Origin: Akkermansiaceae bacterium
GTDB taxonomy: Bacteria > Verrucomicrobiota > Verrucomicrobiia > Verrucomicrobiales > Akkermansiaceae
NCBI GenBank assembly: GCA_903827375.1
Contig: CAIKHZ010000030.1
Span: 62,001 to 126,000, forward strand
Reading direction: 5' to 3'
DNA: 64,000 nucleotides
A program made the translations under genes and the position numbers. Of the stretch, positions 5,592 through 16,306 are shown in pieces. Numbering within the stretch: position 1 is the stretch's first letter; every line of letters begins with the position of its first letter. The notes under the pieces are model-generated. The model was given only the letters and a program-made list of their open reading frames with translations. It was not told the origin of the DNA and made no database searches.

Positions 5592-8500
5592 TCATTTGAG
5601 CTTGGGAATCAAATCACTGAACGTGAGTTTGAAGGCATAAGCGGGCGACTCGAAAGGCGGCTTGCCAACCTTGATCTTGAGTCCATCGGCATCCTGGGTG
5701 AAGGGCAAACTTTCAGCCGTACCTAGCAATGACACCCCGGTCAGGGTTTTGAGATCGATGCGCGACGAGCCGAGGGATCGGACCACGAGCTGGTCGTTAG
5801 ACCAGCCGAGATTGGTGACATACAGCACGGTGTTCGCCTTGTTGCGGGTGAAGCGGATACCGCCATCACCATCCGTGGCGAGCACCCAGCAGCGGCTGGA
5901 GAAGAGCGCCTCACCGATGCGGTCAAGACAATGGCCCATGTCGGTTAGGAAAGTAACGGTCTCGGGTTCCAGTTCACCCTCTGGCGTGAGGGGCACATTG
6001 AGCAGCAGATTGCCACCCTTGCTGACGGTATCGACGAGCATATGAATCGCATTTTGCACGGGCATGTAGCGTTTGGTGGCATTGCGAATCCAATACCAAT
6101 CGGCACCCATCGTTTTGTCCGACTGCCACGGGTAATGCTGGACGGTATTCGGATAGCCGAACTCGTAGTTATTGATGGCAATATTAGGCTTCCAATCGAG
6201 TTTGATAGTGGCCACAGCTTGCAGCTTGCCATTGTTCCACTGCTGATTGGCATTATAGAAATGGGCGAGCACATTGAGGCCTGCCTGTTTGAAGGGGATG
6301 CCGCCGTCGGTATAATAAAGATCCGGGTGGTACTTATCCATTAGATCGCACAGCCGGTCCTCAAAATTCTTTTCGAAGGCCGGTGGTCCGACATCGCTGC
6401 GCTGCTCATACCAGAAATCAGGGAACGCCCCGTTGTCCTTCCACCTCTCGCCGTAGAGGTCGGTATAGGCCGGGTCCTGGCCATCATAGGGAACTCCCGC
6501 CATGGGTCCGGACCGATCAGCCCCGTGCGACGGCTGCAACCAGCGGTAGCTGCGTGCAAAGTGTGAGGCCACGCCCAGCCTCAAACCCTCTTTATCGACG
6601 GCCTTTCGCCACATGCCGACGACATCCTTGCCAGCCGTTGAGACCGAATTCCAGCGCGGTTGGTATTTGGAATCCCACATGTCGAAGTTATCATGATGGA
6701 CCGCGACCGGGACAACGTAGCGGGCACCCGCCTGCTTGTATAATTTGACGTATCGATCCGCCTGGGCTTGGTCGAACTTGGGGGCCGTGAACAACTTACA
6801 AATGTCCTTGTAACCAAACTTGGATGGATGACCGTAGGTGGCGACGTGATACTTGTTGCCCTCACTGCCCTGCTCGTAAATCCACCGGGCATACCAAGTG
6901 GTGGCAACCCCGGGGATGCTCATCGGGCCCCAGTGCATGTATATGCCCAACTTGGCGTCCGCATACCATTCGGGACTCTCATATTGCTGCATCGACTCCA
7001 AGGTCGGCTCAAATTTCAGCCGTGCCGGTTCGCCGGTAACCGAAGGCGCAATACCGACCTCGCAGAACGTGAGCGCGGCGATGCCGTTAGCCCCGAACAG
7101 CAGGTGTGCGGGCTTGCCATCCCAGTCCTTGCCAGTTAAATAAGTGATTGATTTCGCCTCGGACGGCGCGCTGAGCTTGAGCGTGAGAAGATTGTCGGCC
7201 ACGCTACCCGCAGCCACGGGTGCCACAGTCTCATCGAGATAGAAGGAAGACTTGATTTCGTCCTTCCAGACGACAGGTTGGCCAAAGTCGAGGGCAATTT
7301 CATCGTGTTTGCTGCTAGTGAACCAAGCACGCTTGAGGTTTGGCGCGCTGACCGGCTGTTTGGGAGCCAAGCCGTAGTTATCTTGCTCGACAAGCGGGCT
7401 CATGAAGTGGGCAAATTGAGCATAGCCCGCCAGATCAAAGTGGCAAGATCCACGACCGGCGTGCTCGGAGGCGGCCCCCACGGTGGACATGGTTTTCAGG
7501 TTGGAGAAAAGACTGGGCAGCGTCCGCTGCGCCTCTCGGATAAAGTCATCTTTTGGACCCATCGAGCAGGGCAGCGGCCAAACTTGATAGACATAGTAGT
7601 TTTTGATATTCGGATAGTCCTGCTTCCAGGCGGCGGCCATATCGACAAAGTACTGCTGATAGGACTTGTAATTCCAGTCACCGGTGGGCGCGCCCGAACC
7701 GCTGTCGTTTTCGCCCTGATGCCAGATAACGCCGCGGATGCCGTGGGTGAGCTTGGCGGCCGTGATGCGGGTGAGCAGGCAGCCGTAGATTTTGTATGGG
7801 TTGCGATAGAACTCGCCGCTGGTGTCAAAACGGTTAGCTAGATTCACCTGGTGCTGGAAAATTGGGGTGCCGCCCACCGCGCCGTTGATGAAACAAAGGG
7901 GAATGCTGTACTTGGCGACGAGGTTGGTGGCGAGTTCCATGCCCCAAGCGCCGATCTGGTGGTTGCCGTAATCCGGCTTGCCCCAGATATGCGTGCGCAC
8001 CGCGTTGCCCCAACCGCCTTTGATCGAGCCTTCAAGCTGGTTGCCATAACTGCGAATCCACTCGCTCGCCGGCGTTGGGGCGTCTTCGGTCGGACCATTG
8101 TTAGGACCAGTTGCCTCGGCATTCGACTGGCCGTCAATGATATAGGCGTCACCACAGACGATGTTACCGACGGTCTTGACAAGTTTTTCGGTGGCGGCGG
8201 ACTTGGTGCCGAACTCGACCTTGTAGTGGATGAGACCTGGCTTGAGCTTGACGGTGAAAGCATAGCTCTTGTCAGCCGCAGGCTTCTGAGTATCGGTCTT
8301 GATGAGTTTGTCGTCGGCGTAGAGTTTGAGAAACACCGCATCTGCCGGCTCTTCAAGGGTTCCGTTGTAATACAGCGTGCCCTCGTTGTGGTCATCGCGG
8401 GCATAGAATTGATTGGCTTCGGGTTGCTCATCCTTGGCAGACGTGCGCTGCACCCAAGGATCTGTCTTGGGCTCGCTCACCACGATGGAAGTCGATGCAT

Positions 8501-10088
8501 CATAGTCCGCCCCACCGTTGTTGAGCACCAGCTTAACGGTGATTTTGCCGCTGCATTGCGAGCGTTTGAGGATCAGGCGGTCTGCCGCTGCCTCCTTGAT
8601 CACCGCGCCGCCGGAAACACTCCAAGTATAATGCAAGTCCCCTGCCCCTTTGGCTTGCATGGCAGCTAGATTAGCGATATCCGGGCAAATCTCAATGCGC
8701 TCGCGCCCATCCCAAGTCGCCGGGCCGCGCAGGTAGAACACCGGCTCGGGAATCGCTTCCTTGATCTTGACACTTAGGTTCTTAACCTTCACCTCGTTCG
8801 GATAGATAGCCTTGCACTGCAGCACGAAATCCGTGTCGGCAACCACCCGCCCGGCGTTGAACGTGTATGCGAGTTGGTCCACGGCGACGACCGTATCAAC
8901 GGCATCACGCTTGACGATCCAATAGATTTTCTGAGCCCCGGCGGCCTCCGCTGTGACGGTTAGGTTCTGGCCTTCTTCGACTTCAATTTTGCCCGGGGAG
9001 ACTGAAAACGCGTTGCCTGGCTTGACGAAGCAGCCGACCAGGGATTGCTGGGGTTTCTGGTTTTCATATTGCAATTTAAGCCAGTCCGCGGAGCGGGCGA
9101 CGCGTGAGATGCGCACCTCTTCGATATCGCCGCCGAAAGTGGCGCCGCGGTGGCCGCCGATGTCCATGTAAACGTCATCCATCAGCGACATGGCATTGGG
9201 TCCGGCGTCATGGCTGCCCTCGAGCAGGCCGTTCACATAGATCTTGCTGGTGCCTTTTTCGAATGTAGCGGCAATGTGATACCACTGACCGAGCTTGGGC
9301 ACCAAGTTCGCCTTGGCACCGCCGCCGCCATCGGAATTCCACAGCAAGGCCGGAGGCGAACCGAACGTCAAATTCACCAAATTGCCATCGCCGGTTTTGC
9401 CGTTGAAGCGGGTGGCATAGCGTCCCCAACAGACTAACGACGTGTCTGCGTTATTTGCCCGGAACCAACATTCAGAAGTGAACGGATTATTGCTGAAAGG
9501 CAGGCCCTTGATATGGTCGCCGCATTTGATAGCCTTGCCTTGAGTAAAGCGCCGGCAATTGCCGATGATGCCAGCGGCCACGGTGGTGCCGCCATCCTCG
9601 AGGGTGAGCGTGCCGAGCTCATCTTTGAGCGTCTCATTCATGTGGATGACACTCGCGTAACCGTTGTTAGAACTGAACACGGCCGCACCGTTGGATTCAC
9701 TGGCCGCATCCGCCTTGCCCCAATGAACCTTGAATTCCTGACGGGTGTTGCCTTTGATTTGCGGGATCCTCACCCACACACTGGCCTTGCCATGCGCCGG
9801 TTCCCATTTCTCAATTTGATAGGCCAGGGGCTGCCCAGCCGCCGAAAACCGCAGGTCCTCGCCCTTGGCCTTGGCCTGGCTGAAATCAAAACTGCCCTGA
9901 TCCAAGCGCAACAACAACGGGAAACCGTCCACCACCGCCGCAGCTGGCAAGTCAGCGCCCTCCGGTGTAGTTAGAATAAACAGTGATCCCTCATGGCCCC
10001 AGCCAGAATACTGGGCGGCAGCGTGAGGCGTGAAGCCGGCAAGCAGCGCTGCGGCCAGACATAACGGGGATAATTTCATGCGATTCAT
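5592..10088 (-). CDS. Secreted sialate O-acetylesterase / GH29 alpha-L-fucosidase fusion
   Basis: About 1498 residues in order: signal peptide (MKLSPLCLAAALLAGF...AAAQ), a DUF2341-type domain, a LamG/concanavalin-like domain (DIGGHRGATFGGDIEEVRI), an Ig/PKD-like stretch, a SASA-type sialate O-acetylesterase, and a C-terminal GH29 fucosidase. Esterase signs are GQSN with catalytic Ser655, WHQGEND and a later CHFDLAGYAQ. GH29 signs are WYADAKLGIYMHWG near residue 1040 and DLYYTDGG with the expected nucleophile Asp1261. The gene is divergent from the next one, and longer starts would consume the shared promoter, so ATG 10088 (or 10079, which opens the signal peptide) is preferred. It probably removes O-acetyl groups and fucose from the same glycan outside the cytoplasm. 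Confidence 0.88.
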   Translation of the reverse strand: MNRMKLSPLCLAAALLAGFTPHAAAQYSGWGHEGSLFILTTPEGADLPAAAVVDGFPLLLRLDQGSFDFSQAKAKGEDLRFSAAGQPLAYQIEKWEPAHGKASVWVRIPQIKGNTRQEFKVHWGKADAASESNGAAVFSSNNGYASVIHMNETLKDELGTLTLEDGGTTVAAGIIGNCRRFTQGKAIKCGDHIKGLPFSNNPFTSECWFRANNADTSLVCWGRYATRFNGKTGDGNLVNLTFGSPPALLWNSDGGGGAKANLVPKLGQWYHIAATFEKGTSKIYVNGLLEGSHDAGPNAMSLMDDVYMDIGGHRGATFGGDIEEVRISRVARSADWLKLQYENQKPQQSLVGCFVKPGNAFSVSPGKIEVEEGQNLTVTAEAAGAQKIYWIVKRDAVDTVVAVDQLAYTFNAGRVVADTDFVLQCKAIYPNEVKVKNLSVKIKEAIPEPVFYLRGPATWDGRERIEICPDIANLAAMQAKGAGDLHYTWSVSGGAVIKEAAADRLILKRSQCSGKITVKLVLNNGGADYDASTSIVVSEPKTDPWVQRTSAKDEQPEANQFYARDDHNEGTLYYNGTLEEPADAVFLKLYADDKLIKTDTQKPAADKSYAFTVKLKPGLIHYKVEFGTKSAATEKLVKTVGNIVCGDAYIIDGQSNAEATGPNNGPTEDAPTPASEWIRSYGNQLEGSIKGGWGNAVRTHIWGKPDYGNHQIGAWGMELATNLVAKYSIPLCFINGAVGGTPIFQHQVNLANRFDTSGEFYRNPYKIYGCLLTRITAAKLTHGIRGVIWHQGENDSGSGAPTGDWNYKSYQQYFVDMAAAWKQDYPNIKNYYVYQVWPLPCSMGPKDDFIREAQRTLPSLFSNLKTMSTVGAASEHAGRGSCHFDLAGYAQFAHFMSPLVEQDNYGLAPKQPVSAPNLKRAWFTSSKHDEIALDFGQPVVWKDEIKSSFYLDETVAPVAAGSVADNLLTLKLSAPSEAKSITYLTGKDWDGKPAHLLFGANGIAALTFCEVGIAPSVTGEPARLKFEPTLESMQQYESPEWYADAKLGIYMHWGPMSIPGVATTWYARWIYEQGSEGNKYHVATYGHPSKFGYKDICKLFTAPKFDQAQADRYVKLYKQAGARYVVPVAVHHDNFDMWDSKYQPRWNSVSTAGKDVVGMWRKAVDKEGLRLGVASHFARSYRWLQPSHGADRSGPMAGVPYDGQDPAYTDLYGERWKDNGAFPDFWYEQRSDVGPPAFEKNFEDRLCDLMDKYHPDLYYTDGGIPFKQAGLNVLAHFYNANQQWNNGKLQAVATIKLDWKPNIAINNYEFGYPNTVQHYPWQSDKTMGADWYWIRNATKRYMPVQNAIHMLVDTVSKGGNLLLNVPLTPEGELEPETVTFLTDMGHCLDRIGEALFSSRCWVLATDGDGGIRFTRNKANTVLYVTNLGWSNDQLVVRSLGSSRIDLKTLTGVSLLGTAESLPFTQDADGLKIKVGKPPFESPAYAFKLTFSDLIPKLK

Positions 10089-10213
10089 CAGATTGGGCAA
10101 TGCCATGCCTTTAACGCGGCGGCATGCCCTGTTTCTTACAGGCGATTTTGCCTCTGGTTGCTGATTCTTGAAAGTTTGAGATTCGCTAGGCTGTATCAAA
10201 ATAATTAATCAAC

Positions 10214-13200
10214 ATGCAAACGCACAAACATCCGACAATCCAATGCCCGCCCGCCGTCCGGCTGTTGATCGCCGCCGTGGTGGCCTCGCTAATCACGCCG
10301 ACCAGGGCCGAGGCCCCCCCGTCCGTGATGGGCCGCTATGTCCATGTCATGCTGCCCGGCAACAACCACCGCGAGTTGGCTCTCGCCGAAGTCGAAGTCT
10401 TCAGTGCCGGAAAAAATGTGGCGTTCCATATGTCCACGCGCCAAACAAGCGTCGGCGGCGACGGCGTCTCGGAACGTGCCGTTGATGGCAATACCGACGG
10501 CGACGGCGCCGCTGCCAGCACCGCCTACACCCACGCCCCATTCATTGATCCGGCCTGGGAAGTCGATCTGGGCAAGCCGGTGGCCATCGACAAAATCGTG
10601 GTCTGGACGCCTCGCATCGATTTGATGAATGACATGCGGGTGTTGGTGCTGAATGCGCATCGCAAGGTGATCTGGGGGACGTCTCTGGCCAAATGTGCGC
10701 AGGGAGCCAACCCATTCCTCATCAAGGACCACCCGACCTGCGAGTGGCTCGGCCAACGGGTCGCTTGCCCCAACTGGAATCCGGACACCCCGAGCACCCA
10801 CAAAGACGGCACACCGCAATCGCTGCGTCTAGCCATCACCGACCTGATGAAGACGTACGGCGCGCGTTATCCCCGCGGCAAGGAATTTCTGGATCAACTC
10901 ACCGAACTGGAGTCAAAACTCAAAACCCCCGAGGGCGCCAAAGCCTACGAAACCCTCAGAAACGAGGCGCTGATGGCCAACCCGCTGCTGGATTTCGACA
11001 AGCTGCTGCTGGTGCGCCGCAAAGGTGCCAGCGGGCTGCCCGCTAACTGGCAGGGCAACTCCAGCCTCGGCAAAACCTTCGATAACGAACTAACCGTCCT
11101 CAGCCCGTTGTTGGACGGCAACCTAAAAACCCTCTATCGGCCAGATAAACAACAGTTCGTCGGCGACTTTGACCTTCACTTCAATGCCGATAAAATCCTG
11201 TTCTCCTCGCTCGCCGCCAACAACTCATGGGCCATCTTTGAAATCAAGGCCGACGGCAGCGGCCTGCGCCAAGTATCCCCGGATTTGGGGGCCGACGTCG
11301 ATTGTTATGATCCGGTGTATCTGCCCGACGGCAGGATCATTTTTGATAGTTCCCTGAGCTACGCCGGGGTGCCCTGCGTCGGCGGTGCCGACTATGTGGC
11401 TAACCTGCATATCATGAATGCTGACGGCAGCGGCCTGAGGCGGCTGTGTTTCGAGCAGGACAACGACTGGTACCCGGTGGTTCTGAACAACGGGCGAATC
11501 ATGTATCTGCGATGGGAATATACCGATTCGGCGCATTACTTCAGCCGGGTGCTCATGCACATGAATCCGGACGGCACCGATCAGAAGTCATTCTATCATA
11601 GCAACTCGTATTGGCCCAACTCACTGTTCTATGCGCGGCCCATCCCCGGCTCCGCCACCCAGTTTGTCGGTGTCATCAGCGGCCACCATGGTGCCGCACG
11701 CGAAGGCGAACTCGTCGTGTTCGACGCCGCACGCGGCACCTTCGAAGCCGATGGGGCAATCCAACGCATCCCCGGTTACGGCAAGAAGGTCGAAGCCATC
11801 ACCAAAGACACGCTAGTCGATTCCGCCTTCCCCAAGTTTTTGCATCCCTATCCGTTGAGCGACAAATACTTCCTCGCCTCCTGCAATCTCAAGGGTAGCT
11901 GGGGGATCTATCTGGTGGACGTGTTCGACAACCTGCTGCTGCTTAAAAAGGACGATGGAGCCATGCTCCTCGAGCCGGTGCCGTTCCGCAAGACCGTCAC
12001 CCCGCCGGTGATTCCCGACCGCATCGTTCCCGACAGCAAAGAGGCCACCATGCTCATCACAGACATCTACGCCGGAGGCGGCCTGGCAGGCGTCCCCCGC
12101 GGCACCGTCAAAAGCATCCGCGTCTATCAATATGAATTCAGCCCGCGGCGCGCCGGCGGCCACTATGCCATGGGCATGGAAGCCGGCTGGGACCAGCACC
12201 TCATTCTTGGCACAGCCCCGGTGGAATCCGACGGCTCGGCCGCCTTCAAGGTGCCGGCTAACACCCCGGTCTCGCTCCAACCGTTGGACAAAGACGGCAG
12301 GGCATTGGCCATCATGCGCAGCTGGACGACCGCCATGCCCGGCGAAAACCTCTCATGCGTCGGCTGCCATGAAAACCAAAACTCGGCGCCCCCGACCAAA
12401 CAAACCATCGCCCAGCGCATCGCGCCACATGCCCTCACGCCGTGGTTCGGCCCGACACGCGGGTTCAGCTTCGCCCGAGAGGTGCAGCCGGTGATGGACA
12501 AGTATTGTGCGGGCTGCCACGACGGCAAGAGTGGGGCGAAGCCGGACCTATCCGAACCTAACAGGGCCTACAATGCGATTCATCCTTACGTGCGGCGCAA
12601 CGGTCCGGAAGGCAACTATCATTTGCTTATGCCACTTGAGTTTCATGCCGATACCAGCGAACTCATCCAGATGCTCGAAAAAGGCCATCACAACGTCAAG
12701 CTCGACGGCGATGCGTGGAGCCACCTGGTGACTTGGATCGACCTCAACGCTCCAAACCACGGCACTTGGGCGGAGGCGGGGGCGGGCCAAGACGTGCTCA
12801 AGCGGCGGATGGAACTCAACAAACAGTATTACGCCGAAGCAGTGGCCGATACCGAGAAAATCCATAACCCGTATAAGAAAACGGAAACTTTCGTCAAACC
12901 CGAACCGGTAACCGCTGAAACCAGCAAACTCGGCCCTGCAACCCCCGCGGGTTGGCCGTTTTCCGCCGAGACTGCAAAAACCAGGCAAGGCCCTAATGCG
13001 AAAGCGCAGCTCGACTTGGGCGATGATGTAAAGTTAGACATGGTGCGGATTCCTGCGGGCTCCTTCCTGATGGGCAGCAACGTTGAAACTCCCATGGAAC
13101 GGCCGATCACACCGGTGGCCATCAAGACCCCCTTCTGGATGGGCGCCAAGGAAGTGAGCCTGGAGGAGTACCGCCAGTTTGATCCGGACTATCAAAACGG

Positions 13201-13831
13201 CATCTATGACATGCACTACAAGGACCAAGTCAAGCCGGGCTACGACATGAACCATGTGGAATTTCCGGTTATCCGGGTGTCTTGGCAGAAGGCCATGGAA
13301 TACTGCCAGTGGCTGTCCAAGAAAACCGGCCGCAAAGTCACCCTGCCGACCGAAGCCCAGTGGGAATGGGCGTGCCGCGCCGGCTCCGCCACGCCCTTCT
13401 CCTACGGCGATCTGAATACCGATTTCTCCGCTTTTGCCAATCTGGCAGACGTCACAGTCAAACAAATGGCAGTGTCCGGCGTCGATCCCCAGCCTATCAA
13501 CAATCCAGGACCTAACGAAGACTTCGAACTCAAGGACGCCCGATTCAACGATGGAGTGCTTCACTTGGCCCCCACCGGTAAGTATCAGCCTAACCCGTGG
13601 GGCCTGTGCGACATGCACGGCAACGTCGCCGAATGGACGCGCTCCGACTACAAACCCTATCCCTACAATGACAGCGACGGCCGCAACAGCCTCGCCACGG
13701 CTAACCAAAAGGTGGTCCGCGGCGGCTCGTGGCACGACCGGCCACTGCGCTCCACGTCCACCTTCCGCCTCGGCTACCCGAGCTGGCAGCGAGTCTATCA
13801 CGTCGGCTTCCGCGTCGTCGTCGAAAACTGA
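10214..13831 (+). CDS. F5/8C - hydrazine-synthase-alpha-like propeller - dihaem - FGE-like fusion protein
   Basis: 1205-residue exported protein (signal peptide ending near TRAEA). Residues about 40-160 resemble an F5/8 type C carbohydrate-binding domain. Then come WD40-like propeller blades with repeated IMNADGSGLRRL-type motifs, as in the HZS-alpha family. Two haem c sites follow, C715VGCH719 and C765AGCH769. From about residue 943 there is an FGE/SUMF1 fold (MVRIPAGSFLMGS, PTEAQWEWACRAG, DMHGNVAEWT, VVRGGSWHDRPLRS, VGFRVV). The two copper-binding cysteines of true formylglycine-generating enzymes are absent after GGSW, so sulfatase activation is unlikely. The domain order is what I associate with large PVC proteins of unknown function; the role is inferred to be periplasmic redox or glycan-linked. 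No Shine-Dalgarno. Confidence 0.85.
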   Translation: MQTHKHPTIQCPPAVRLLIAAVVASLITPTRAEAPPSVMGRYVHVMLPGNNHRELALAEVEVFSAGKNVAFHMSTRQTSVGGDGVSERAVDGNTDGDGAAASTAYTHAPFIDPAWEVDLGKPVAIDKIVVWTPRIDLMNDMRVLVLNAHRKVIWGTSLAKCAQGANPFLIKDHPTCEWLGQRVACPNWNPDTPSTHKDGTPQSLRLAITDLMKTYGARYPRGKEFLDQLTELESKLKTPEGAKAYETLRNEALMANPLLDFDKLLLVRRKGASGLPANWQGNSSLGKTFDNELTVLSPLLDGNLKTLYRPDKQQFVGDFDLHFNADKILFSSLAANNSWAIFEIKADGSGLRQVSPDLGADVDCYDPVYLPDGRIIFDSSLSYAGVPCVGGADYVANLHIMNADGSGLRRLCFEQDNDWYPVVLNNGRIMYLRWEYTDSAHYFSRVLMHMNPDGTDQKSFYHSNSYWPNSLFYARPIPGSATQFVGVISGHHGAAREGELVVFDAARGTFEADGAIQRIPGYGKKVEAITKDTLVDSAFPKFLHPYPLSDKYFLASCNLKGSWGIYLVDVFDNLLLLKKDDGAMLLEPVPFRKTVTPPVIPDRIVPDSKEATMLITDIYAGGGLAGVPRGTVKSIRVYQYEFSPRRAGGHYAMGMEAGWDQHLILGTAPVESDGSAAFKVPANTPVSLQPLDKDGRALAIMRSWTTAMPGENLSCVGCHENQNSAPPTKQTIAQRIAPHALTPWFGPTRGFSFAREVQPVMDKYCAGCHDGKSGAKPDLSEPNRAYNAIHPYVRRNGPEGNYHLLMPLEFHADTSELIQMLEKGHHNVKLDGDAWSHLVTWIDLNAPNHGTWAEAGAGQDVLKRRMELNKQYYAEAVADTEKIHNPYKKTETFVKPEPVTAETSKLGPATPAGWPFSAETAKTRQGPNAKAQLDLGDDVKLDMVRIPAGSFLMGSNVETPMERPITPVAIKTPFWMGAKEVSLEEYRQFDPDYQNGIYDMHYKDQVKPGYDMNHVEFPVIRVSWQKAMEYCQWLSKKTGRKVTLPTEAQWEWACRAGSATPFSYGDLNTDFSAFANLADVTVKQMAVSGVDPQPINNPGPNEDFELKDARFNDGVLHLAPTGKYQPNPWGLCDMHGNVAEWTRSDYKPYPYNDSDGRNSLATANQKVVRGGSWHDRPLRSTSTFRLGYPSWQRVYHVGFRVVVEN

Positions 13832-14008: not shown

Positions 14009-16306
14009 ATGAAACAAATGAAACCTATGGATCATTTCTTGCGCCTGGCATCCCTGGCGATCGCGGCTGCCGGAGTGGCAGGCGCGCGAGCCGCCGAGGC
14101 TACCGGGCCAATTTCCTATCCGGGGATGAAGACCCAGGTGGACGCGCAGGGCGTACAGACCCGTGAGTACGCGTTTCACAACACGTGCAAAAAGCCCGGG
14201 CCGTGGCAGGCGCAGTGGATATCCGGCAGCGGGTGGTTTCGCAAGGAACTCACGCTGGCCGAGGCGCCCCAGCAGGTTGCGGCATGGCTCACCGCAGATA
14301 GCCACTACGAACTCTACATCAACGGACAACTCGTCTCGCGCGGCCCTGTGGATATGGGGCGTGACTATGACGGCGGCAACACCCACCGCTGGTTCTATGA
14401 TTACCGCAACCTGACACCCTACTTCAGCAAAGGCAAAAACGTCATCGCCGCCAAAGTCAGCGGGCGACCCGCATTTCTGTTTGAGTCGGAAATGACGTTG
14501 CCCGGCCAACAGAAAGTAACTGTGAAGTCCGATGCGAGCTGGCACGCCATTCCGGCACAAGCCACCACGGAGTGGCTCAAAGCAGGGTTTGACGAGGCGG
14601 CCGCTCCCGCAGCGCAAGTGGTGCCTAACATAGCAGATCCACTGGTGGCCAGCGAGATTCCGCCATTGATGGAAGCGAGCTATCCGGTGGCGCGCATGGA
14701 AGGGCTGCCGGCTGACAAGCGCTTCACCAAAGATGGCAGTTTCAAGGTGGTGTTCGACCGGGTTCTCAGCGCCTATCCGACGCTCAAGGTCAGAGGCGGC
14801 AAAGGGGCGAAGGTCAACATCAAGGCGCACCGCGAGGCCAGCTTCACCTTGGCTGGCGGCGAGCAATCGCTGGAATGCTCCGCCATGACCGAGATTGCAC
14901 CGGCCTTCACAGTCGAGTTCAGCCACGTCACCGAGCCCATCGAAGTCCTCGACGCAGGGGCCACATTCACCTCACAACCCGTCGCCTATCGCGGTAGCTT
15001 CGAGTGCAGCGACGAAGCCCTCAACCGGCTATGGAAAGTATCGCGGTGGACGGTGCAGATATGCCTGCAGACGCATCACCTCGATTCACCCAACCACCAG
15101 GAACCCATCTGCGACCCAGGCGATTACGTGATCGAAGCCATGGCCAATAACTATGCGTTTGCCCAGCCATGGCTGACCCGCCAGGACGTGCGCAAATTTG
15201 GCTGGCTCCTGAAGGATAGAAACTACCACAACTTTCACACAAGTTATTCCATTGGCTGGCTGCAAATGTTGATGGATTACTATGACTTCACCGGCGACAA
15301 AACGCTAGTGGCAGAAATGGCTCCTTTTGTGCACGAGCTGCTGGACACCTATGCCACCTGGCGCGGCAAGAACGGCATCATCTCTGAAGCACCCAATTAC
15401 ATGTTTATGGACTGGGTGAGCATCGGCGGATTCGAGTGCCACCACCCGCCGGCGGTGATCGGCCAGGGATATCTAACCGCATTCTATTATCATGGGCTGG
15501 AAATGGCGGCACGGGTGGCAGCGCTGCAGGGTGACGCCGCGCGAGTGGCGAAGTACGGACAACTGCGCAAGGACATTGCTGTGGCCTTCAACCGCGAACT
15601 CTGGAACGAACAAAAGGGATTGTATCGCGACGGCAAACCGTTCCAGTCATCCGTCAAACCCTATCAATGGATGCCGGCTGACAAGGAGATTGAAACCTTC
15701 AGCCCGCACGTCAACCTCCTCGCCGTGCTTTATGACCTCGCCCCCAAGGACCGGCAGGCGGCAATCACCGACAAAGTGCTGGCCGAAAAACAGCTCAATA
15801 CCCAGCCCTGGTTCATGCACTGGGTGTTCCAAGCCATCGACCATGCAGGGCTCTTCGGTACCTACGGCACCGCCCAGATGAGGAGATGGCAGATTGTGCC
15901 CGAGACCCAGTCGTTCCGCGAAATGTGGAACGGCGGTGATCTCAGCCACGGCTGGTGCTCCTCGCCGCTCATCCAAATGTCCTCGCGGGTGCTCGGCGTA
16001 ACCCCGGCCAGCCCGGGCTTCAAATCCCTCGCCATCCGGCCCCAGCTGTGCGATCTGACGTGGGCCAAAGGCAGCGTGCCCACGCCTCACGGCGACGTCA
16101 ACGTGGCTTGGTCCTTGACTGCTAACAATCTAACGCTTGAGGTGAACATTCCCGCCGGCACCGAAGCCGATGTGAGCGTGCCCACCTCCAACTTCGAACA
16201 ACCTGCCATCGAACTGGACGGCCGAAGCGCGACCGCCGTAGCACACCTGAGCGCCGGCCCACATCGCTTTGTGGTCACCGGCAAACTCAAGGCTGCAGGG
16301 AAATAG
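14009..16306 (+). CDS. Secreted GH78-type alpha-L-rhamnosidase
   Basis: 765 residues. A signal peptide (LRLASLAIAAAGVAGARAAEA) is followed by an N-terminal beta-sandwich with the typical WISGSGWFRKELTL and YELYINGQLVSRGP segments, then an (alpha/alpha)6 barrel. The catalytic region reads HLDSPNHQEPICDPGDY, in place of the commoner D-C-P-x-R-x-E-x-x-G-W form but with the Glu kept. A C-terminal beta domain closes the protein (SPGFKSLAIRPQL). It would remove terminal rhamnose from polysaccharides or glycosides outside the cell. It lies 177 bases after the fusion gene on the same strand, without a visible Shine-Dalgarno. Confidence 0.82.
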   Translation: MKQMKPMDHFLRLASLAIAAAGVAGARAAEATGPISYPGMKTQVDAQGVQTREYAFHNTCKKPGPWQAQWISGSGWFRKELTLAEAPQQVAAWLTADSHYELYINGQLVSRGPVDMGRDYDGGNTHRWFYDYRNLTPYFSKGKNVIAAKVSGRPAFLFESEMTLPGQQKVTVKSDASWHAIPAQATTEWLKAGFDEAAAPAAQVVPNIADPLVASEIPPLMEASYPVARMEGLPADKRFTKDGSFKVVFDRVLSAYPTLKVRGGKGAKVNIKAHREASFTLAGGEQSLECSAMTEIAPAFTVEFSHVTEPIEVLDAGATFTSQPVAYRGSFECSDEALNRLWKVSRWTVQICLQTHHLDSPNHQEPICDPGDYVIEAMANNYAFAQPWLTRQDVRKFGWLLKDRNYHNFHTSYSIGWLQMLMDYYDFTGDKTLVAEMAPFVHELLDTYATWRGKNGIISEAPNYMFMDWVSIGGFECHHPPAVIGQGYLTAFYYHGLEMAARVAALQGDAARVAKYGQLRKDIAVAFNRELWNEQKGLYRDGKPFQSSVKPYQWMPADKEIETFSPHVNLLAVLYDLAPKDRQAAITDKVLAEKQLNTQPWFMHWVFQAIDHAGLFGTYGTAQMRRWQIVPETQSFREMWNGGDLSHGWCSSPLIQMSSRVLGVTPASPGFKSLAIRPQLCDLTWAKGSVPTPHGDVNVAWSLTANNLTLEVNIPAGTEADVSVPTSNFEQPAIELDGRSATAVAHLSAGPHRFVVTGKLKAAGK

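Follow-up and report, generated by a model that had tools for sequence, protein, structure and literature searches.

An exported dihaem protein of an Akkermansiaceae genome belongs to a large family related to the alpha-subunit of hydrazine synthase

A 64,000-nucleotide stretch of an Akkermansiaceae bacterium genome (contig CAIKHZ010000030.1, positions 62,001 to 126,000, hereafter the window) encodes a protein joining carbohydrate-binding, propeller, haem and FGE-type modules, and this locus raises the question of what a chain of such composition may do. The initial annotation had described a single chain of 1205 residues with CxxCH motifs at residues 715-719 and 765-769, and both the length and the positions proved exact. 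Its domain calls were also borne out, as Pfam placed HZS_alpha (PF18582, residues 630-720, E 7.8e-31, 107 bits against a cut-off of 26.6, making the protein a member of this family) and FGE-sulfatase (PF03781, residues 942-1202, E 4.6e-44, 151.4 bits against 23.3) above their cut-offs, and the propeller and haem domains aligned with 5c2v, a structure of the hydrazine synthase (HZS) alpha-subunit. For the F5/8C module the profile search gave less, F5_F8_type_C_2 (residues 88-145, E 2.6e-5) reaching 25.2 bits, below the curated cut-off of 27.8; phmmer matched the lectin FBP32 (3cqo_A) over residues 37-125 with 2e-12. This module varies, and many homologues are without it.

We built a model of the core (672 residues, 201-872, with 24 aligned rows; pLDDT 75.9, pTM 0.76), whose top match in the PDB was HZS-alpha 5c2v (VIA; Z 32.8, root-mean-square deviation 3.1, 536 residues aligned, 23% identity), model residues 60-645 lying on 5c2v chain residues 55-791. 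The full-length model was modest (mean pLDDT 63.7), and Foldseek also gave 5c2v as its top structural match (E 4.7e-25). The next-best matches of the core model were TolB propellers (Z 25); TolB and YWTD-type propellers, with scores well under 5c2v, were rejected as shared fold only. Moreover, the profile compared with nine anammox HzsA sequences by hhalign gave a probability of 99.9 and an E of 9e-31. Considering the 5c2v alignment and the HzsA profile comparison, the propeller, middle and cytochrome domains, all within one chain as in HZS-alpha (VIA), look descended from a common ancestor; the core (about residues 260-845) is homologous to the hydrazine synthase alpha-subunit. For the cytochrome c-like domain the Pfam matches were weak, under cut-off, and the alignment of the core model to 5c2v reaches chain residue 791.

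We asked whether the window protein could itself be a hydrazine synthase. In the enzyme, as given in part of PMC12607021 and PMC12758564, Tyr591 holds the iron of haem alpha-I, and His587 and Cys303 bind zinc; the two residues share this one zinc (PMC12758564, in part), so that the propeller and the haem alpha-I domain touch there. At the Tyr591 place, four residues past the CxxCH His, the window protein has Asn, and none of the 33 paralogues in its genome has Tyr there. The zinc ligand Cys303 is unmatched, its place falling near SNSYWPN in hhalign; the HzsA of locus L105 is also without Cys303, which is therefore absent from some anammox HzsA too. The NF052339 equivalog of the alpha-subunit scored 48.2 bits of the 800 required, while whole anammox HzsA score 1518-1606, and weak matches to this model are unspecific, as 1 of 14 controls also matched. 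With Tyr591 replaced, Cys303 unmatched and 48 of 800 bits, the window protein is not a hydrazine synthase. Compared with HzsA of Kuenenia (PDB 5c2v), it has the same propeller, haem alpha-I-type middle domain, C-terminal cytochrome domain and two CxxCH motifs, and a His adjoining the HzsA His772 place, whereas its CxxCH spacing is 50 instead of 102, Tyr591, a match for Cys303 and an adjoining beta-gamma gene are missing, and a family-specific propeller motif and extra F5/8C and FGE domains are present.

The gene is one of many. Its genome assembly (6.1 Mb, 370 contigs) contains 33 matches to HZS_alpha, all over cut-off and one of them in a 251-residue fragment, and the same search of 14 control genomes gave a match in 0/14. 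Across Verrucomicrobiota the distribution is patchy, the domain being found in 61 of 288 sampled genomes; the sample has three more genomes from this genus, one with a single match and two with none. Planctomycetes carry the family as well, with 14 matches in strain CA13 and 107 and 85 in two metagenome-assembled genomes (MAGs) of Phycisphaerae, counts that may be inflated by completeness or strain redundancy; copies sampled from one of these MAGs were not near-identical on a tree. What is new here is the scale and uniformity of a dihaem family related to hydrazine synthase. Separately, the sister genus g18 of the same family, with small genomes, often has few HZS_alpha matches (among those listed, 11 genomes with one, 2 with five and the others none).

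Results showed that the haem motifs, which the initial annotation had taken as intact haem c sites, are conserved: CxxCH 1 occurs in 33/33 paralogues and CxxCH 2, about 50 residues further on, in 32/33. These 33 matches were collected with no C..CH filter, though the PF18582 profile covers CxxCH 1. The Phycisphaerae open reading frame (ORF) filter (A5) and one further ORF set admitted only ORFs with C..CH, and full CxxCH scores there are partly by construction; locus L128, missed by the filter, also has both CxxCH and RWDYT, making 46/46 fetched Phycisphaerae genes. Conservation was also judged on 21 homologue rows. Beyond the haem motifs, W841 is kept in 33/33 paralogues, and a His column near the H825 place in 39 of the 45 Phycisphaerae ORFs. 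The propeller motif RWxYxD is kept in both sets (R433 in 32, W434 in 30, Y436 in 31 and D438 in 29 of the 33 paralogues; R 44, W 45, Y 44 and D 42 of the 45 Phycisphaerae ORFs), together with a Cys and a His pair (Table 1). In the core model, C388 and H491-H492 are in loops joining two strands and W434-D438 is at a strand end, apparently the same place in three successive blades, so that the three probably lie on one propeller face; by homology with the Cys303 contact, this modelled face should meet haem 1. Most members appear exported, a hydropathy test for a signal peptide being positive in 26/33 paralogues, 38/45 Phycisphaerae ORFs and 15/21 homologue rows. The genome also encodes ResB and CcsA-type proteins for haem c maturation, and with CxxCH in an exported chain and such haem ligation genes elsewhere in the assembly, the window protein is predicted to be a c-type cytochrome.

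Table 1. Coordinates within the window of the HZS-alpha-like gene, its domains and conserved residues, and the flanking genes
Feature	Positions	Strand	Basis
ORF, exported HZS-alpha-like dihaem protein, 1205 aa	10214..13831, stop codon included	+	ORF list, translation checked
Sec-type signal peptide (putative), about residues 1-33	10214..10312	+	sequence, judged by eye
F5/8C-like galactose-binding module, about residues 37-165	10322..10708	+	Pfam PF22633 under cut-off; phmmer
Helical segment, residues 200-254	10811..10975	+	core model, pLDDT over 90
Beta-propeller, about residues 260-600	10991..12013	+	core model; VIA alignment to 5c2v and TolB
Cys388, propeller-loop residue	11375..11377	+	31/33 paralogues; 44/45 Phycisphaerae ORFs
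RWEYTD 433-438, propeller motif RWxYxD	11510..11527	+	paralogue conservation
His491-His492, propeller-loop pair	11684..11689	+	27 and 24 of 33 paralogues; 42 and 42 of 45 Phycisphaerae ORFs
HZS_alpha middle domain, haem alpha-I-like, residues 630-720	12101..12373	+	Pfam PF18582
CxxCH 1, CVGCH 715-719	12356..12370	+	translation; 33/33 paralogues
Cytochrome c-like domain, haem alpha-II-like, about residues 740-850	12431..12763	+	weak Pfam, core model
CxxCH 2, CAGCH 765-769	12506..12520	+	translation; 32/33 paralogues
His825, candidate distal ligand of haem 2	12686..12688	+	32/33 paralogues
FGE/SUMF1-fold domain, residues 942-1202, without copper Cys pair	13037..13819	+	Pfam PF03781; Cys positions
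Divergent neighbour, 1535 aa: DUF2341, LamG, SASA esterase, alpha-L-fucosidase	5592..10199	-	Pfam
Downstream neighbour, 765 aa, rhamnosidase-like	14009..16306	+	Pfam

From these features we propose, with a probability of about 0.5, that the window protein is a stand-alone extracellular oxidoreductase. It would be a secreted c-type protein with two covalent haems, in which haem 2 (His769 and His825) would serve as a bis-His electron relay and haem 1, ligated by His719 and facing the propeller surface with C388, RWxYxD and H491-H492, may be a catalytic or ligand-binding site. Because no beta-gamma gene adjoins the window gene (Pfam of the neighbours), the protein would act alone, outside the cell or in the periplasm, and its accessory modules (F5/8C in this case, in some paralogues NPCBM or LamG, and the FGE-like fold) might place it on a polymer or a partner. 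The many paralogues suggest many substrates, glycans being the leading, unproven guess. A wider proposal, which we consider rather unlikely, is that these proteins would constitute a new class of haem enzymes acting outside the cell in Verrucomicrobiota and Planctomycetota, with an HZS-alpha-type haem and a pocket completed by the propeller Cys, Trp-Tyr-Asp and His-His. Duplication would have given tens to a hundred oxidoreductases for oxidative polymer attack, each specific to a substrate and many of them bearing modules, hydrazine synthase being one specialised offshoot. If true, this would be a polymer-attack arsenal on the scale of the Bacteroidota polysaccharide loci, and hydrazine synthase would be no isolated invention.

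Several observations weigh against the stand-alone oxidoreductase. Its haem content and activity are predictions from sequence and models. One paralogue (L101:7912-11949, contig C40) has no CxxCH 2 and forms a very long branch of the tree. In hhalign the candidate ligand H825 falls one residue away from HzsA His772, and H826 is aligned exactly yet variable. The expectation of the initial annotation that both CxxCH sites lie in a fold held for site 1 in the core model and, at low confidence, for site 2 (ten-residue-block mean pLDDT 72 and 64); from CxxCH 2 to His825 the blocks have pLDDT 41-64 in the core model and 25-55 in the full model. The pocket itself would follow from the strand order of the core model, in which the two loops holding C388 and D438 are partly under pLDDT 50.

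The genomic context adds to these points. The flanking sialate esterase/fucosidase and rhamnosidase genes had been taken as a sign of redox chemistry coupled to glycans, a suggestion that the counts did not uphold: rhamnosidase domains occur at about 25 places in the genome and SASA domains at about 50 (30 and 62 matches, merged by eye), and 7 of these 75 have an HZS-alpha-like match within 6 kb where 4.1 are expected (P 0.12). At 4, 6 and 10 kb, for rhamnosidase, SASA or both, there was no enrichment near HZS-alpha-like matches (P 0.12 to 0.40). The survey of homologue neighbours that had been proposed as a check revealed diverse neighbours and no conserved partner among the 25 commonest families listed for each set (58 and 53 neighbours of the own paralogues, 68 of the Phycisphaerae genes). 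Among the latter, sulfatases were 3/68 versus 2/83 control genes and PQQ_2 4/68 versus 4/83, the control genes being 83 of the 96 called across 20 stretches from the two Phycisphaerae MAGs. The only support for a glycan link comes from module fusions, found in a minority of members: F5/8C, NPCBM, LamG, rhamnosidase-N and one 3-keto-disaccharide hydrolase.

The alternative that survives best is a non-catalytic electron-transfer hub, in which both haems would be low-spin relays and the protein would connect respiratory chains, or dehydrogenases secreted by the cell, with an acceptor outside. Two conserved haem motifs, a bis-His candidate for haem 2 and the very many paralogues would fit such a role, which we regard as possible but on the unlikely side, since most of the 33 and 45 sequences keep the polar and aromatic cluster of C388, RWxYxD and HH, which has no part in haem attachment and exceeds what a relay needs, and no dehydrogenase stood out among those commonest neighbour families. 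It is improbable, in our view, that the protein is a surface adhesin or sensor with structural haem, in which the propeller, F5/8C and FGE-like folds would do the work. Binding is a frequent role of propeller, galactose-binding and FGE-type folds, and the N-terminal modules vary, as a binding protein might lead one to expect; the haem motifs, however, are among the most conserved residues, whereas the binding modules vary.

A role in nitrogen chemistry requires considering the partner subunits. Neighbour genes in L069, L058 and L096 match HZS beta in the PDB (1.7e-29, 8.3e-26 and 2.5e-29, respectively) and HZS gamma (3.5e-28, 2.3e-21 and 3.7e-30, respectively). L060, L067 and L069 each run beta-gamma, three-haem alpha, FGE-alpha; in L058 the alpha gene comes first, followed by beta-gamma and FGE-alpha. 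By these matches, HZS-like alpha-beta-gamma sets exist in Akkermansiaceae and in a planctomycete. Counted with one query at E 1e-10 and with pieces merged by eye, a procedure that could miss more divergent genes, beta-gamma-like genes number 2 in the window's genome (on other contigs), 2 in CA13 and about 6 and about 5 in the Phycisphaerae MAGs. Against 33 alpha matches this is few, so most alpha-like proteins in the counted genomes, the window's included, are without a beta-gamma gene of their own. That the window protein is a nitrogen-compound enzyme near hydrazine synthase (NO, hydroxylamine or hydrazine chemistry), acting as the alpha part of an alpha-beta-gamma complex, is quite improbable, because full-length alpha homology, the fusions beside some relatives with their PDB matches in the three tested, and the order in L060, L067 and L069 are set against the replacement of Tyr591 in all 33 paralogues, the unmatched Cys303, a window gene with no adjoining beta-gamma, 33 alpha against 2 beta-gamma genes in the genome, and the same verdict given on other homologues in part of PMC12758564. 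The three tested neighbours are among the dihaem genes noticed adjoining HZS-alpha-like genes, in the same genome (L096:11561-13639 on C229 and L072:11422-15081 on C306) and elsewhere (L058:5827-7626, L060:5792-7699, L067:2907-4784 and L069:3138-4991).

As the FGE-like domain is the other unusual part of the chain, we examined its cysteines, which are at 1031, 1054 and 1132 with none after 1132, where the copper Cys pair of FGE, near the C-terminus, would presumably lie. In 41 FGE-bearing rows inspected by eye this pair was never seen after GGS, and a few rows had a single Cys. The initial annotation was therefore right that the copper-binding cysteines are lost and wrong in calling the domain cysteine-less; with no Cys at the FGE copper sites, its view that the protein is not a sulfatase activator stands. 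The best PDB matches of the domain by sequence are PvdO (2.6e-17) and PorK (4.4e-14). It has the FGE fold in common with PvdO, GldK/PorK and ToxD, and differs in being joined to a dihaem core and in a recurrent RGGSW..RP..S..R pattern; in the full model this part is of low confidence. A link with sulfatases was considered and found unsupported: across the 61 sampled Verrucomicrobiota genomes with HZS_alpha, first-look counts, which overcount but are uncapped where scored matches stop at 16 and 7 per genome, gave a weak Spearman correlation of 0.25 with sulfatases (P 0.049, relatedness uncorrected). The HZS-rich genomes G263, G330 and G333 have 4, 8 and 7 sulfatase candidates, and G265 has 317 with one HZS match.

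By Pfam, FGE is found in 6 of the 33 paralogues and 21 of the 45 Phycisphaerae ORFs; its combination with the HZS-alpha core thus recurs. We placed it on a tree of 88 rows: 32 of the 33 own sequences (the L091 fragment dropped), 45 Phycisphaerae, 8 of the 21 homologues and 3 of the 9 HzsA. Forty Phycisphaerae places were hand-picked from the better-scoring part of the match list, L145 and L057 are the same gene counted twice, and the partial L068 was left out of alignment A1. FGE was labelled by a motif rule, giving 19 Phycisphaerae rows versus 21 by Pfam, with L125 and L146 unlabelled. All 32 labelled rows fall within one 37-row branch (support 100), which spans two phyla with the rows of both interleaved; its five unlabelled rows are L070, L119 and L142, each truncated by a contig end, together with the sisters L125 and L146. 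The label needs four changes on the tree when unlabelled rows are taken as without FGE and L070 is not counted, and the simplest reading is one fusion followed by loss or missed calls. HzsA is on a long branch, and its position in the tree is therefore unsure.

Few distant HZS-alpha homologues had been described, according to part of Hagglund et al. 2025 (PMC12758564), whose non-anammox set includes Opitutus terrae and whose over 600 Foldseek hits are described there as mostly proteins with HZS_alpha or cytochrome c domains. Those homologues, as partly described there, are of the same domain family, have lost Tyr591 and Cys303, and some have beta-gamma neighbours, as here; their clade I is without His772, whereas the window family keeps a His adjoining that place. 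The window family also differs in reaching up to 107 copies and in having one branch with an FGE domain. The words 'Verrucomicrobi', 'sulfatase' and 'formylglycine' are absent from the main text of PMC12758564, and among the open-access PMC papers listed we found none on this expansion or fusion, nor a function for the family. The HZS-alpha subunit thus belongs to a very large and diverse family in Verrucomicrobiota and Planctomycetota, whose members in the genomes counted mostly have no partner genes, and the role of haem 1 would matter to the question of how anammox chemistry arose and to the extracellular activity of these polymer degraders.

Some minor observations concern individual loci. 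The 251-residue HZS-alpha-like fragment (L091:9728-10480, contig C238) lies near a SASA match with one in-frame TAG, and is either a broken gene or an assembly fault. The listed TTG start of the divergent neighbour at 5592-10199 is probably too early. Downstream of the window gene, a rhamnosidase-like gene is also present in L053, a homologue 88% identical, and in the Phycisphaerae relatives L057 and L065 a gene of the enolase superfamily lies downstream. Finally, HZS-alpha-like genes were found paired side by side in L099 (7473-12649), L113, L118, L134 and L146, which suggests possible heteromers.

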